From positions 124,001 to 188,000 of the forward strand of contig DATAUW010000012.1 of NCBI GenBank assembly GCA_036268055.1: a stretch of 64,000 nt of DNA, read 5' to 3'. The DNA is from Verrucomicrobiia bacterium. GTDB lineage: Bacteria; Verrucomicrobiota; Verrucomicrobiia; Limisphaerales; Pedosphaeraceae. Each line of letters opens with the position of its first letter. Within the stretch, counting starts at the first letter, position 1. The notes under the pieces are model-generated. The model was not told the origin of the DNA. It did not search any database and was given only the letters and a program-made list of their open reading frames with translations. Shown piece after piece: positions 6,203 through 58,403 of the stretch. The position numbers were made by a program, and so were the translations under genes.

Positions 6203-6475
6203 ATGAGAAAGACACTTGCGATTATTTTTTCAGGCGCGGCGCTCGCCGGCACTTTGGCTTTCACCTTGCCTTCGGTTTTTGCGGAATCGAATATCGTGCC
6301 TACGCCGATGGCAGAAAATCGCCCAGCCATGCATCGCGCGATTGATGCGCTGGAAGCCGCGAAAACGGAAATGGAACACGCCGGCCACGATTTCGGCGGC
6401 CACAAGGCCGCAGCCATCGCCGAATGTGACAAGGCGATTGTCCAGTTGAAAGAGGCGCTGAAATACGACCGCTGA
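6203..6475 (+). CDS. small secreted His-containing helical protein (90 aa)
   Basis: A clear signal peptide (MRKTLAIIFSGAALAGTLAF, cleavage near VFA-E at residue 27) precedes a 62 residue mature chain. The mature chain is predicted helical, with regular His, Met and acidic residues (MHRAIDALEAAKTEMEHAG, then HDFGGHKAAA). Small periplasmic helical hairpins of this type are common in Verrucomicrobia. Metal or haem binding is possible from the His and Met content but not shown. It is a single gene, followed 19 bases later by the 178 bp palindromic element. Confidence 0.65.
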   Translation: MRKTLAIIFSGAALAGTLAFTLPSVFAESNIVPTPMAENRPAMHRAIDALEAAKTEMEHAGHDFGGHKAAAIAECDKAIVQLKEALKYDR

Positions 6476-6493: not shown

Positions 6494-6671
6494 AACCGCG
6501 GAGGCACGGAGACGCGGAGGAAGAAGAAAGTTTTAGCCACGGATGGAACACGAAACAAACACTGATTGAGAACATTTTTCTGTGTTCAATCCGTGTTTCA
6601 TCTGTGGCTGGTACCTCCTTTTTCCCTTTGGCCGTTCGCAAGGACCTCCGCGTCTCCGTGCCTCCGCGGTT
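6494..6671. repeat. 178 bp nested-palindrome element with perfect 26 bp terminal inverted repeats
   Basis: The left arm 6494-6519 (AACCGCGGAGGCACGGAGAC and six more bases) is an exact reverse complement of the right arm 6646-6671. Inside lies a second inverted pair, AGCCACGGATGGAACACG against CGTGTTTCATCTGTGGCT (two mismatches), and inside that GATTGA/TCAATC. The whole element could fold into one long hairpin. It carries no gene. A related end occurs at 28859-28884. It resembles a MITE or a folded non-coding element. Confidence 0.75.
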
Positions 6672-6752: not shown

Positions 6753-7169
6753 ATGGCTAAGGAAAAATTGAAATCAGCGCCGATGCCGGTGGAGTTGCTG
6801 AACATGCAGGGCTTCACGGCGTCGCAGCAGGAGGCGCTGCTGGATCTGCTGGTTCTGGCGATGTATCTCGACGGCAATCTCGCCAAGGTCGAGGAGGCGC
6901 GCGTGCAACAACTTTTGACCGCGATGGGTTTTGCGACCGAGTATGATCGCAACCGCCAATTCGACGCATCAGTCACGCGCGTGCGGCGGGAATCGCAGAC
7001 GGCGGAGGCGGTGAAGGCCTGCAGCGGACGGCTCGCGGATAAATTCACGTTGCCGGACCAGCAGCGGCGGATTTACCGGATGTTGCGCGAGTTGACGGCG
7101 CTGGATGGAAATATTTCAAAAGAGGAAAGCCAGTTCTTATTGGCGATCAAAGAGAAGTTTGGGATCTGA
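6753..7169 (+). CDS. TerB-like (tellurite-resistance-like) domain protein
   Basis: This 138 aa acidic, all-helical protein shows the pattern of TerB-like domains: repeated helical units with LLVLAMYLDGNLAKVEE (residues 31-47) and ALDGNISKEESQFL near the C-terminus, each with an Asp-Gly-Asn turn that may bind a cation. It has no signal peptide and is probably cytoplasmic. The start is set at the ATG at 6753, because upstream in-frame sequence lies inside the palindromic element. TerB-like domains occur in stress and phage-related contexts, but no ter operon is present here. Precise role unknown. Confidence 0.65.
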   Translation: MAKEKLKSAPMPVELLNMQGFTASQQEALLDLLVLAMYLDGNLAKVEEARVQQLLTAMGFATEYDRNRQFDASVTRVRRESQTAEAVKACSGRLADKFTLPDQQRRIYRMLRELTALDGNISKEESQFLLAIKEKFGI

Positions 7170-17696: not shown

Positions 17697-17830
17697 TTTA
17701 ATTAGGCGGTTCAGGTTTGCGATCGCGGAAATGATGGCCAGCCACGCACAGCGTGACGAGATAAAATTGCTCGGATGCTATTAACCGTCAATGAACAGCT
17801 TATTCACAATACGGATGGAGTAAAATTCCG

Positions 17831-17950
17831 TGCGGACTGCGGGTCTATGACCCGCAGCAAGGTGCATACGGTCAAGCCGCCTTCGGCTCAGCCTGACGCG
17901 GCAATCTTCTTTTCGGATTGCTGTGGGTCATAGACTCGCGGTCCGTTGGA
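17831..17950 (+). repeat. GCGGGTC-hairpin element, copy 2
   Basis: This is the shortest copy (about 115-120 bp). The left end is the perfect hairpin GCGGGTC-TAT-GACCCGC at 17839-17855. Next come AGCAAGGT, GGTCAAGCCGCCTTCGGCT with a small hairpin, and GCGGCAATCTTC. The right end is decayed (GTGGGTCATAGACTCGC). The middle that varies between copies is almost absent. It occupies the 330 base gap between 17697 and 18030, which otherwise holds nothing recognised. Confidence 0.75.
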
Positions 17951-28012: not shown

Positions 28013-28783
28013 CTAAACGCCCTTTCGCTTTTTCCGAAGCTCCTTCACTTTATCAATTCGTGCCCGCACGCGGCCATGCAGGCGAGCCTTCAATCCACCC
28101 GATTTTTTCTCCGGCTGCTCGCGTCGTAAAATATATGTCACATGCGGCACGGAGGTGCGTGAGATGTCTTCCGGCGTGGTGTTTTTTCCCGCGATGCCCG
28201 GCACGAGATCCAGGCCCGCTTTGCCGAACAAATGTTGGACGAATGCCGAGCAATAAATCGAACTTTCGCGCGCCAATAAATTTTCCTTCGCGCGCAATTT
28301 CGGCTCGCGCAGCGCGATCAGCGTGCCGATCAGTTCTCGCAGCGAATATCGCGTGCGCGCGGCCACCAGTTCCAGGCCTTCATGCAGCAACTTCGCCACC
28401 GACGTTTCGGGCAAAGCGAAATCCAGCACCGCCAGCGTCGTGTAAAAATTCTCGTCGAAATATTTCGCGATGCGATTTTCCTGCACGCCGAGCCGGATAT
28501 GTTTGCGATTGATCTGGATGTCCGATTCGATCACCCAATGATGGCCGTCGTGGCGCGAACCCTGGAAAAGAAATGCATGTGACCACGCGCCCCACTCGCC
28601 AAGGGGATCAATGTGCCGCTCGGCGCGAAGGATGGCCTTGTCCACGAGCGTGCTGCCGCCGCAAAGCCCGACGCGGCCGGGACGCGCGTATTGCTCCAGA
28701 AATTCGCGATTGGAAATCCCCGTGACCACGACAACTTGATTTTGTGCCGCGCCCGTTTGCTTTTCTGCGTTTGAATTATCCAT
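28013..28783 (-). CDS. YiiX-type papain-like (permuted NlpC/P60) protein
   Basis: The 256 aa protein shows a plausible permuted NlpC/P60 layout. WGAWSHAFLFQG with a conserved His (about residue 70) comes early, and SSIYCSAFVQHLF with the likely catalytic Cys comes late, followed by LDLVPGIAGKNTTPEDI. YiiX-like enzymes act as amidases or esterases on cell-wall or lipid-linked substrates. No signal peptide. The start is taken at the ATG at 28783, with AAAAGG just before it; an upstream in-frame start would add a hydrophobic-basic tail. A basic C-terminal tail (KELRKKRKGV) may contact membranes. Substrate unknown. Confidence 0.6.
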   Translation of the reverse strand: MDNSNAEKQTGAAQNQVVVVTGISNREFLEQYARPGRVGLCGGSTLVDKAILRAERHIDPLGEWGAWSHAFLFQGSRHDGHHWVIESDIQINRKHIRLGVQENRIAKYFDENFYTTLAVLDFALPETSVAKLLHEGLELVAARTRYSLRELIGTLIALREPKLRAKENLLARESSIYCSAFVQHLFGKAGLDLVPGIAGKNTTPEDISRTSVPHVTYILRREQPEKKSGGLKARLHGRVRARIDKVKELRKKRKGV

Positions 28784-28858: not shown

Positions 28859-28884
28859 CTCCGCGCCTCCGCGTCTCCGCGGTT
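28859..28884. repeat. solo end of the 178 bp palindromic element
   Basis: CTCCGCGCCTCCGCGTCTCC plus GCGGTT resembles the right arm at 6646-6671, built from the same words (CTCCGCG, GTCTCCG, CCTCCGC, CGGTT) in a slightly different order. No matching left arm is present within 300 bases, so this is a remnant or solo end. It lies in the gap between the YiiX-like gene and tgt. Confidence 0.5.
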
Positions 28885-31993: not shown

Positions 31994-32004
31994 TCCGATC
32001 CCCA

Positions 32005-32176
32005 TGGACCGCGGGTCTGCGATCCGCAGCAAGGTCAATAGGGTCAAGCGGCTTATGGCTCCGCCCGCATCGTTCTATATGCAAGAACCAAACAGTTGGT
32101 TTTTTAAATGATTTCCAAATCGTGAGCGGCAATCTTCACGGGAATTGCTGCGGGTCATAGACCCGCGGTCCGTGGG
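32005..32176 (+). repeat. GCGGGTC-hairpin element, copy 3
   Basis: The left hairpin is slightly decayed (GCGGGTC-TGC-GATCCGC, 32011-32027). The right hairpin GCGGGTC-ATA-GACCCGC (32150-32166) is perfect and followed by GGTCC. Between them are AGCAAGGTCAATAGGGTCAA, a variable AT-richer core (32070-32120), and GCGGCAATCTTCACGGGAAT. It has the same orientation as copy 2. It fills the 220 base gap between the HDOD gene and the convergent GH2 gene and may act as a bidirectional terminator. Confidence 0.75.
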
Positions 32177-32214
32177 GGAAGTGAAATGCCGCTGCTTACG
32201 AACCCGATAATCTA

Positions 32215-51500: not shown

Positions 51501-51529
51501 CGGGCGCGAATAATATAAACGAGCGACAT

Positions 51530-51565
51530 GCCAATGTAGCTCAGTGGTAGAGCAACGGTTTCGTA
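51530..51565 (+). pseudogene. duplicated 5' half of tRNA-Thr(CGT)
   Basis: Positions 1-36 of the intact tRNA at 53135-53209 are repeated here (GCCAATGTAGCTCAGTGGTA, then GAGCAACGGTTTCGTA). Identity stops inside the anticodon loop, so no functional tRNA can form. A TATAAA at 51514-51519 lies 10 bases upstream and may be the old -10 box. This is the footprint of site-specific integration or duplication at the tRNA gene. Confidence 0.85.
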
Positions 51566-53118: not shown

Positions 53119-53134
53119 CGTGGGCCGATTAGTT

Positions 53135-53209
53135 GCCAATGTAGCTCAGTGGTAGAGCAACGGTTTCGTAAACCGTCGGTCGCCGGTTCAATCCCGGCCA
53201 TTGGCTCCA
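53135..53209 (+). tRNA. tRNA-Thr(CGT)
   Basis: The acceptor stem GCCAATG/CATTGGC, the D arm (GCTC AGTGGTA GAGC), the anticodon stem ACGGT/ACCGT with the 7 base loop TTCGTAA (anticodon CGT, reading ACG) and the T arm CGCCGGTTCAATCCCGGC-type stem-loop are complete. The 3' CCA is encoded (53207-53209). A second copy of the 5' half lies 1.6 kb upstream at 51530-51565. Confidence 0.95.
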
Positions 53210-53286: not shown

Positions 53287-55154
53287 ATGGCTTTTGCTTC
53301 GTTACGTTTGGGTGGTGACTCGAGGCTAATTCTTCCTTCGCGAAATTTTTCCATTGGGCTTGCGCTGGCTTTGATGTTGATGGTGATGGGGGTTTATTTT
53401 CCGGCGGCGAGGTTCGGGTTTATCAATTTTGATGATGATCTTTATGTGACGGCGAATCCGCAGGTTCAGGCGGGGATATCGGTGCGGAATATCGAGTGGG
53501 CGTTCACGCATGCGGTGGCTTCGAATTGGCAGCCGGTAACGGTGTTGTCTCATGCGCTGGACTGCCAGCTTTTTGGCGCGAATGCGGGGATGGCGCATGC
53601 GGAGAATGTGTTTATTCACGCGCTGAATGCGGCGCTGGTTTTTGTTTTGTTTCTCGAATTGACGGGGGCGGCGTGGCCGAGCTGGTTTATCGCATTGCTG
53701 TTTGCGATTCATCCGTTGCGCATCGAATCGGTGGCGTGGATATCGGAACGCAAGGATGTGTTGAGCGGGTTCTGGGGGTTGGTTCGCTGATCTTTTATGT
53801 TCGTTATGCGCGGAAGCGAGACGCGTTGTCTGCGGAGGTAATTTCTATTTCGCCGAAGCGTGATTATGGGCTGGCGGTGATTTTTTTGGCGCTGGGGTTG
53901 ATGAGCAAGGCGATGCTGGTGACGTGGCCGTTGGTGATGTTGCTTTTGGATTATTGGCCGATGAACCGATTTCAATCGCGGTCAGTAAAGTTTTTGCTGC
54001 ACGAAAAAATTCCGTTCTTTGGGCTGGCGGCGATGGCGAGTGGCGTCACTTTTGCGGTGCAACATTTTGCGGGGGCGATGGCATCGGTGGAGAAGCTTTC
54101 CATGCTGGCGCGTTTCGAAAACGGTTTGGTTTCTTATGCCCGTTATCTCGGCAAATTATTTTGGCCGGAAAAATTGTCGGTGTTTTATCCTTATCCGGGT
54201 TCGTGGCCGGTGGGGGAAATTGTTTTGGTGGCGCTTTTGATCATCGCGATTTCGGGAATCGCTTTGGGGAAAAGGCGGGCGTATCCATTTTTGATAATGG
54301 GGTGGTTATGGTTTCTTGGCACGCTGGTTCCGGTGATTGGGCTGGTGCAGGTGGGAGATCAAGCGATGGCGGATCGTTATACTTACATTCCGTCGCTGGG
54401 GATTTTAATTATCGTGGTTGGGGGCGCGGTGGAATTGGCGCGGCGGTGGAGGTTCGCGGTGGTTCCGTTGGGCGTGTTGGGCGGGGTGGTGATTATTTTG
54501 TGCGTGGTCTCGACCCGACGGCAACTTGGTTATTGGCGGGACAGCGAAACACTTTTTCAACGCGCGCTCGCGGTGACGGAAAATAATTATGTGGCGCATA
54601 ATAATCTAGGGGCGGTTTTGGAAAGCCGCGGACAAATTGATGAGGCGATGGCGCATTACGCGGAGGCGTTTCGCTTGCGGGCGGATGATGAGCCGGCGCA
54701 TTATAATTTGGGTAATGCGCTTTATAAAAAAGGCCAGTTCGACGAGGCCATCGCGGAATATCAAAATGCGCTTCGCCTGAATCCGAAGGACGCGGCGGCG
54801 TTGAAAAATTTGGGCAATGCGTTTCTCAAAGACGGGCGCGCGGATGAGGCGATTGTTGAATATCAGGCGGCGATGCGGTTGCAACCGGGCAATGGGTTTA
54901 TTTGCTATGATCTGGCCAAGGCTTTTTTGCAAAACGGGCGCGCGGACGAGGCGATCAAGGAGTATCGGCAAGCGATTTTGTTAAAACCGGATTATGCCGA
55001 GGCGCATAATAATCTGGGTTCCTTGTTGCAGGCGCAGGGGCGGCTCGACGAGGCGATTGCTGAATATCAGGAGGCGATTCGGTTGAAGCCGGATTATTCC
55101 CTGGCGGAGAATAATCTTGCGGAAGCGATGCGGTCGAAGAATTCGCGCAGGTAA
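53287..55154 (+). pseudogene. multi-pass membrane protein with C-terminal TPR repeats, frameshifted
   Basis: The N-terminal part (from the ATG at 53287) matches the family with FINFDDDLYVTANPQVQAG, WQPVTVLSHALDCQLFG and ESVAWISERKDVLSG. It should continue with GLGSLIFYVRYARKRDALSA, but that is in another frame; one base is missing in the G-run near 53770-53785. After the shift come LGLMSKAMLVTWPLVMLLLD, more membrane segments, and about five TPR units (such as EPAHYNLGNALYKKGQFDEA and IAEYQNALRLNPKD). The intact family is a large 12-helix protein with TPRs, related in layout to PMT-type or O-antigen enzymes. Either a recent pseudogene or an assembly error. Confidence 0.8.
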
Positions 55155-58151: not shown

Positions 58152-58182
58152 TTAAGGGGTTTATTCCAAGTGATTGATTCTT

Positions 58183-58403
58183 TCGTCCCGGTCGGGACTT
58201 GGTTTGAAGGGGGATTTCGACCCAGCAATAAATTGCTGGGCTAAGGTCGGGCGTCCCTGGCGGGACTTGCGAGGGAGGTTGGATGGGCAACTTCGTTGAA
58301 GTTGCAGATTGTTTTTTTTGGTTTTTCCCAGGGTAGGTTTGAACCAACCCTGGGCTTTGTAGGCACAACATCGTTTATGTTGCCGGAGGAGACGGCGGAG
58401 CGG
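58183..58403. repeat. hairpin-word array R1
   Basis: Six short inverted repeats with small loops follow one another: GTCCC/GGGAC (58185-58198), CCCAGCAAT/ATTGCTGGG (58221-58240), GTCCC/GGGAC (58253-58266), GCAACTTC-GTT-GAAGTTGC (58287-58305), CCCAGGGT...ACCCTGGG with an inner GGTTTGAACC (58327-58354), and GGCACAACAT...ATGTTGCC (58362-58384). Positions 58283-58403 are repeated in the same orientation at 59376-59493. No gene is encoded. Confidence 0.75.

Follow-up and report, generated by a model that had tools for sequence, protein, structure and literature searches.

A mosaic intergenic repeat with inverted tandem-octamer arms and a patchy distribution across bacterial phyla

Is the 178-bp sequence at positions 6494–6671 of this DNA a mobile element, an array of protein-binding sites or a folded RNA? 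The initial annotation of the window (the whole 64,000-nucleotide stretch of a Verrucomicrobiia genome that was analysed) had described perfect 26-bp terminal repeats, an inner 18-bp pair with two mismatches and a single hairpin running the length of the element, and had proposed a MITE or a folded RNA. The terminal repeats were confirmed as the arms 6494–6520 and 6645–6671, which are in fact 27 bp long, 100% complementary and separated by 124 nt. The inner pair is imperfect as described, with four mismatches in its first 21 nt and not two. The features to which the text refers are as follows.

6203–6475, + strand: upstream gene of 90 aa, its stop codon 18 bp before the element
6494–6520, + strand: left arm A, AACC followed by three tandem 8-bp units generalised as CGCGGAGR, one unit being CACGGAGA
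6535–6562, + strand: left arm of inner module C, AGCCACGGATGGAACACG..., with units of about 11 bp
6582–6609, − strand: right arm of the inner module, C′, imperfect complement of C
6622–6646, − strand: module B′, a GGTCCTTGCGGACGGCC-like short hairpin
6645–6671, − strand: right arm A′, complementary to the left arm at every position
6753–7169, + strand: downstream TerB-like gene (PF05099, E 1.7e-7)
28859–28884, − strand: solo A arm; the divergent gene 28013–28783 has its predicted start 75 bp away

Read in order, the right arm is CCTCCGCG TCTCCGTG CCTCCGCG GTT. Because module B′ is present on one side only, the element has an orientation. The 178-nt + strand RNA folds at −108.9 kcal/mol (z −14.7), and none of 200 shuffles folded as stably. 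A Pfam search with the 90-aa upstream protein gave no match at E 0.01; on the other side, 81 bp separate the end of the element from the ATG of the TerB-like gene, or 27 bp if the start given by our hexamer finder is used. The lone related end reported at 28859–28884 is real, with 3 mismatches over 20 nt, and is followed 68 bp later by the start of tgt (28953); the 20-mer given in the initial annotation matched three times in the window at up to 3 mismatches and never in 100 shuffles.

The genome-wide search proposed at the outset revealed many copies. A 196-bp query against the 5.1-Mb own genome (41 contigs) yielded 68 HSPs, the query site included. A-like sites at up to 3 mismatches numbered 71 against 29 for the reversed pattern, a control that is high because the motif is repetitive; with a stricter degenerate A pattern, 75 matches stood against 2 in the reversed control, and module C at up to 3 mismatches gave 52 sites against 0. 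Module B was matched 28 times across 80 own-genome stretches. The copies follow the order A-(B)-C-loop-C′-(B′)-A′ and are mosaics from which modules are often missing, and the arm logo, TTAACCGCRGAG R CGCRGAG R CGCRGAG, is an array of 8-bp units. Arms are mostly solitary: the own-genome stretches hold 10 inward-facing pairs (inner distance 69–164 bp) and 66 unpaired arms, and loci from two Verrucomicrobiales metagenome-assembled genomes (MAGs) hold 12 pairs (14–100 bp) and 45 unpaired arms. The element in the window thus belongs to a mosaic intergenic repeat family of about a hundred copies.

To place the copies relative to genes, we used the 80 stretches fetched of 90 planned (10 were left out) and called genes with a home-made hexamer finder, so start positions are rough. 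None of the 99 clusters in these stretches falls inside a predicted gene; 60 lie in tandem, 24 in divergent and 12 in convergent gaps, and 3 have one neighbour missing. The outer A end lies a median of 10.5 bp from a stop codon (30 ends, of which 25 are within 20 bp) and a median of 68 bp from a start (39 ends, 23 of them at 59–84 bp). In the 51 tandem gaps with both distances at most 400 bp, the position of the element is biased towards the stop codon, at a mean fraction of 0.29 (P<1/20000). The element comes closer than 40 bp to the start in 6 gaps where 17.5 were expected. This skew fits survival only outside genes and promoters. Across 20 loci of the Rhodocyclaceae genomes G060 and G516, the medians were 21.5 bp to stops (18 ends) and 25.5 bp to starts, and the 68-bp start spacing was not seen among the 18 start-facing ends.

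The arm recurs far beyond the own genome. Within the named genome collection, 44 stretches contain the exact 26-mer. The two Verrucomicrobiales MAGs (Gx481_bin192 and Gx485_bin111) account for 40 of these stretches, and the other four come from one Rhodocyclaceae, one Phycisphaerae, one Nitrospinota and one unclassified MAG. With a degenerate arm (up to 2 mismatches), the two Verrucomicrobiales MAGs gave 176 and 176 copies (reversed controls 0 and 3), the Rhodocyclaceae MAG 194 (5), the Phycisphaerae MAG 25 (1), the Nitrospinota MAG 75 (2) and the unclassified MAG 11 (0). Binning errors could account for single stretches, hardly for 75–194 copies. In the own phylum, the degenerate arm matched in 77 of 387 genomes, several by one match and at most 120 copies, and the reversed control gave 8 matches in 7 genomes. 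Three congeners carry 120, 21 and 4 arm copies; within the own family, one genome (G003) has 41 arms, six others have 0–7, and G006, of the genus of G003 and 75% complete, has 0. Arms occur in 7 of 81 genomes of the family to which the Rhodocyclaceae MAG belongs, that MAG included. An exact 23-mer was present in 30 IMG/VR stretches on putatively viral contigs, and a search of phages and plasmids with blastn at distant settings (E 1e-5) gave no match to the element. The tgt protein had no match in a scan of the viral contigs, which is uninformative on the element. The intergenic position of the repeat, its many copies and its patchy occurrence across phyla are well supported.

On balance, and with confidence a little better than even, we take the element to be a non-autonomous, non-coding interspersed repeat, an inverted pair of tandem-octamer arms that spread horizontally and whose arms are putative protein recognition sites. 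Spread as a passive mobile element is probable, and we infer both this mobility and the recognition of the arms by a putative protein. In favour of this reading are the modular, multicopy make-up, the placement of copies relative to genes, the sporadic occurrence across taxa, and, as set out below, the inward-facing arms, the sites with swapped or absent elements and, as a suggestion, gene ends occupied in both G003 and the own genome. Against it stand the lack of a target duplication, the age of most sites, a lone clear presence/absence site that could be a deletion, the lack of an enzyme in the search of the Y1 family, the lack of a match on phages or plasmids, arms that are not clearly more constrained than flanks, the weak control of the G003 comparison, and the start spacing not seen in Rhodocyclaceae. 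The arms would serve as recognition sites of a trans-acting protein, putatively a transposase, recombinase or nucleoid protein, and insertion or exchange would happen in units of inverted pairs. Insertions would persist only in the gap from a stop codon to the next promoter, and the hairpin would be a harmless by-product of paired recognition sites, perhaps useful as a 3′-end structure or terminator. The exact arm shared across phyla, the erratic copy number, the intergenic position of all own-genome copies read and the exchangeable interiors described below make it testable what recognises and moves these elements. If the arms bind one protein, it would be a new mobiliser or a new nucleoid factor of environmental bacteria of several phyla.

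The alternative that survives best, although we think it unlikely, makes the arms regulatory or architectural sites of the host, octamer arrays bound by an IHF/HU-like or other nucleoid protein and serving as a chromosome landmark and not a parasite. The tandem-octamer design and the pairing of sites speak for it, and both have a published precedent in the class 2 'predicted global regulator binding sites' of Geobacter metallireducens, described by Aklujkar et al. (2009, PMC2700814) as three tandem 8–9-bp repeats, TCTCCGTS[Y]. According to the site descriptions in that paper, there are 21 paired class 2 sites on opposite strands at variable distance, with one site unpaired and possibly vestigial; class 1 sites have four octanucleotides and insertion sequences at a fixed distance, and IHF/HU binding was proposed for the site classes (PMC2700814). 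In G. bemidjiensis, multicopy sequences are reported to occupy 12% of intergenic regions (PMC2996986).

Compared through the published consensus alone, the window arm resembles class 2 in its three 8-bp units. In the right arm, the middle unit with its next base, TCTCCGTGC, fits the consensus, and the outer two units, CCTCCGCG, fit it loosely. Opposite-strand pairs at variable distance, as in the published account of class 2, are likewise found in the own genome, the two MAGs and G060 (36 pairs). Compared with that account, the window element differs by its nested modules B and C, its units are mostly CGCGGAG where those of Geobacter are ACGGAGA, and unpaired arms are common in the own genome. 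Literature searches with arm motif strings gave no match, and the only otherwise relevant papers among those returned were on Geobacter/Pelobacter and on REP sequences (PMC2700814, PMC2996986, PMC3543383, PMC3733652). By analogy, then, the G. metallireducens class 2 sites appear to be the closest precedent, of which the window element may be a new mosaic variant in kind.

Host sites would also account for solo arms that retain their sequence, such as the 66 unpaired A arms of the own stretches, and for gene ends occupied in more than one genus. When G003 was compared with the own genome (18 of its 41 listed sites were used), 5 of 20 gene ends adjoining elements had orthologues (52–89% identity) that adjoin own elements; a sixth match reached 24% identity and was left out of the orthologues. 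Of 98 control genes taken from these own stretches none matched, but with 166 test ends the chance that five matches all fall on the test side is about 0.1; the expected number of matches, about 0.8 (20 ends, 166 own ends, about 4,200 genes), rests on a guessed gene number. The shared occupation is suggestive and goes no further because the 0/98 control is weak. One such gene, at L071/L103, is followed by module A-B in one genome and by C in the other, 9 and 7 bp after the stop.

Several observations weigh against host sites: the patchiness within the phylum (77 of 387 genomes), the disparity among congeners (120, 21 and 4 copies), the exact arm common to several phyla, and arm change that is similar to flank change in close genomes once the choice of sites is allowed for. 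This last point comes from the two Verrucomicrobiales MAGs, which are about 92–97% identical at shared loci. We compared 20 sites, six of them (P1–P6) picked as both loci hold the exact arm and most others as one does; a site that is arm-like in one MAG only, with no gap (L262/L168), was excluded, and 8 of 12 flanks queried for an orthologous place gave one. Differences numbered 24/364 in arms against 62/973 in flanks, counts that include L203, where the second arm is misaligned, and L196, which holds an insert in the arm; without these two rows they were 9/312 and 49/839. Selecting sites by an exact arm in one of the genomes is expected to produce a gap of about a factor of 2, and the arms are not clearly more constrained than the flanks between the two MAGs.

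Most element sites are old: 18 of the 20 were occupied in both MAGs, and 12 of the 14 chosen without an exact arm in both (that is, excluding P1–P6) are common to both. Presence against absence is clear at one site, L176/L309, where one MAG has nothing of the element and the junction shows no clean duplication; the difference could be a deletion. At L165/L310 the element is absent from one MAG and synteny is broken, and at L189/L200 the difference is one 33-bp arm. At L196/L308 about 54 bp of another repeat is inserted within the arm, and in L193 and L204 the sequence of this insert follows the interrupted arm. In L308, L193 (6698–6723) and L204 (1159–1184), the repeat GATTCGCTTCGCTAGTGTCGTTAGAGCGGGC breaks into or adjoins octamer arms, each time at a similar position, as if the octamer arm were its target.

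At 4 of the 20 sites (P3, P6, L181/L303 and L182/L305), the left arm and both flanks are conserved and the interior has been swapped for a different module; orthology is less sure at L181/L303 because its far flank falls in a repeated gene family. P1 was not counted because agreement stops at the arm and the far flank was not found, and it may be either a swap or a rearrangement. DNA of a repeated gene family recurs in the two MAGs (L163, L172, L175, L178, L188, L193 and L198; pairs mostly 76–91% identical), and L172 carries an 879-aa frame that looks autotransporter-like by eye; the nearness of this family to arms is uninformative because the loci were fetched for their arms.

Variable interiors are also seen in the Rhodocyclaceae genomes G060 and G516, where the elements read are A-interior-A′ hairpins of about 70–150 bp beside stop codons. 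Neighbouring arms faced inward in all 38 G060 cases, with about 10 of the 49 stretches chosen as pairs. G060 (loci L362–L408) has 36 distinct interiors, 30 of them 58–76 bp long and 9 exactly 75 bp. At E 0.01, only 3 of 630 interior pairs were similar, and four interiors have a relative in another stretch; one interior searched against phages gave no match. Compared in register, the 14 interiors of 73–77 bp share 33.4% identity where shuffles give 28.2 ± 0.5%, an excess that makes very old copies more likely than random captures. Arms that stay alike while such interiors drift again fit nucleoid sites, and the cause could be selection on the arms, conversion or exchange.

Exchange leads to a bolder scheme that we rate a shade below the host sites and regard as doubtful. 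The octamer arms would be docking sites of a putative site-specific exchange system, in which an 8-mer-binding protein would swap or insert interiors between two arms that face inward and leave no target duplication. Such a system would have spread across Verrucomicrobiota, Betaproteobacteria, Planctomycetota and Nitrospinota.

Returning to the preferred reading of a passive interspersed repeat, the hairpin raises the question of whether the element acts mainly as RNA, as a bidirectional transcription terminator or a stabiliser of mRNA 3′ ends. We consider this quite improbable. The very stable fold, ends about 10 bp past stop codons and some convergent gene pairs with nothing but the element between their stops agree with such a role. 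So do some IMG/VR arm pairs that enclose an apparent terminator: by eye, L214, L216, L224 and L233 show an arm, then an apparent intrinsic terminator hairpin and T-run, then an inverted arm, and in L214 and L216 a stop codon shortly precedes the first arm. Against a primary terminator role, divergent copies (24) outnumber convergent ones (12) among the 96 clusters with both neighbours, and solo arms are not terminator-like. Distances between the two arms of C pairs were not below those of shuffles (p=0.18), and folding energy was slightly better with the own arm than with exchanged arms (p=0.025), so arm co-variation is not convincing. Rfam at gathering thresholds gave no match at the window element or at the elements of eight element-bearing loci.

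A classical MITE derived from a DDE transposon is about equally improbable. The element is short and non-coding, with terminal inverted repeats and multiple dispersed copies, and to this extent (inverted arms, many copies, intergenic spread) the MITE proposal was borne out. It failed on target site duplication, which was not detected above shuffled flanks in 10 own pairs (p=0.26) or 12 MAG pairs (p=0.38). A MITE also differs in that the arm here is a tandem array and solo arms are more frequent than pairs (66 unpaired arms against 10 pairs in the own stretches). The initial annotation had named a lack of target duplication, a lack of other copies and arms not conserved in relatives as evidence against it; the first is what we observed, and both copies and arms in relatives were found. 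Its equation of perfect arms with recent movement or conversion does not hold in general: within one element, the two arms differ by a mean of 3.9 positions. They were not significantly closer to each other than to shuffled partners (p=0.07 and 0.27), and homogenisation of arms by conversion was rejected on this ground.

Last, we considered a REPIN or TIRtron mobilised in trans by a Y1 (HUH) transposase. REPINs (or BIMEs) with their RAYT are likewise inverted short repeats, intergenic, high in copy number and mosaic in make-up, and TIRtrons with TIRYT (Di Nocera et al. 2013, PMC3733652) are described as long-TIR repeat families in dimers or clusters. As outlined in the same paper, REP stem-loops of 8–9 bp are tagged by GTAG or CGTC, the latter marking one REP superfamily (PMC3733652). 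Scanned by eye, the element contains no GTAG-tagged palindrome and indeed no GTAG; CGTC does occur in the arm's complementary strand (CCGCGTCTCC), where it belongs to the array and has no 8–9-bp tagged stem-loop.

A Y1_Tnp profile gave five hits in the own genome, four of them clear and a weak fifth within a 1117-aa frame. The clear Y1 genes adjoin repeats or palindromes of their own (90, 75, 37 and 34 bp), unrelated to A, B and C and unlike the arrangement expected of TIRtrons; the 37-bp repeat (L062) is itself weak. Among the 30 Y1 loci read, of 35 listed, in eight other arm-rich genomes, an arm-like site lay near 3 and none was bracketed by arms. One genome (G291) has 38 arms and no Y1 hit, and at 97% completeness a missed gene is possible. 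No associated transposase that uses A ends was found in this search, which covered the Y1 family. An origin from RAYT or TIRtron systems, the least probable reading of all, is mostly refuted and was rejected, as the Y1 loci have repeats of a different kind beside them and none has arms on both sides. A complete element is found 1.1 kb from the weak fifth hit (L065, G000:C19:52190-52358, 53441-53791), on one side of it.

Other repeats were noted in the window. An Rfam match to 'Acido-Lenti-1 RNA' (58221–58267) sits in the repeat 58178–58267, which resembles (75–76%) the TIRs of a Y1 transposase gene (L061 1300–1387 and 1936–2025); RF01687 hits the outer end of both of these TIRs and a place near the Y1 gene of L064. 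Judged from these sequence matches, the Acido-Lenti-1 'small RNA' family may represent the end of a transposon. Three places (1171–1347, 17827–17946 and 31999–32177) belong to another family of interspersed inverted repeats, with GCGGGTCTATGACCCGCAGCAA arms and, where these are paired, an interior of about 110 nt. Finally, the 5′-end 37 nt of the tRNA gene 53135–53206 (53134–53170) are duplicated exactly 1.6 kb upstream (51529–51565), which could be the attachment-site duplication of an integrated element.
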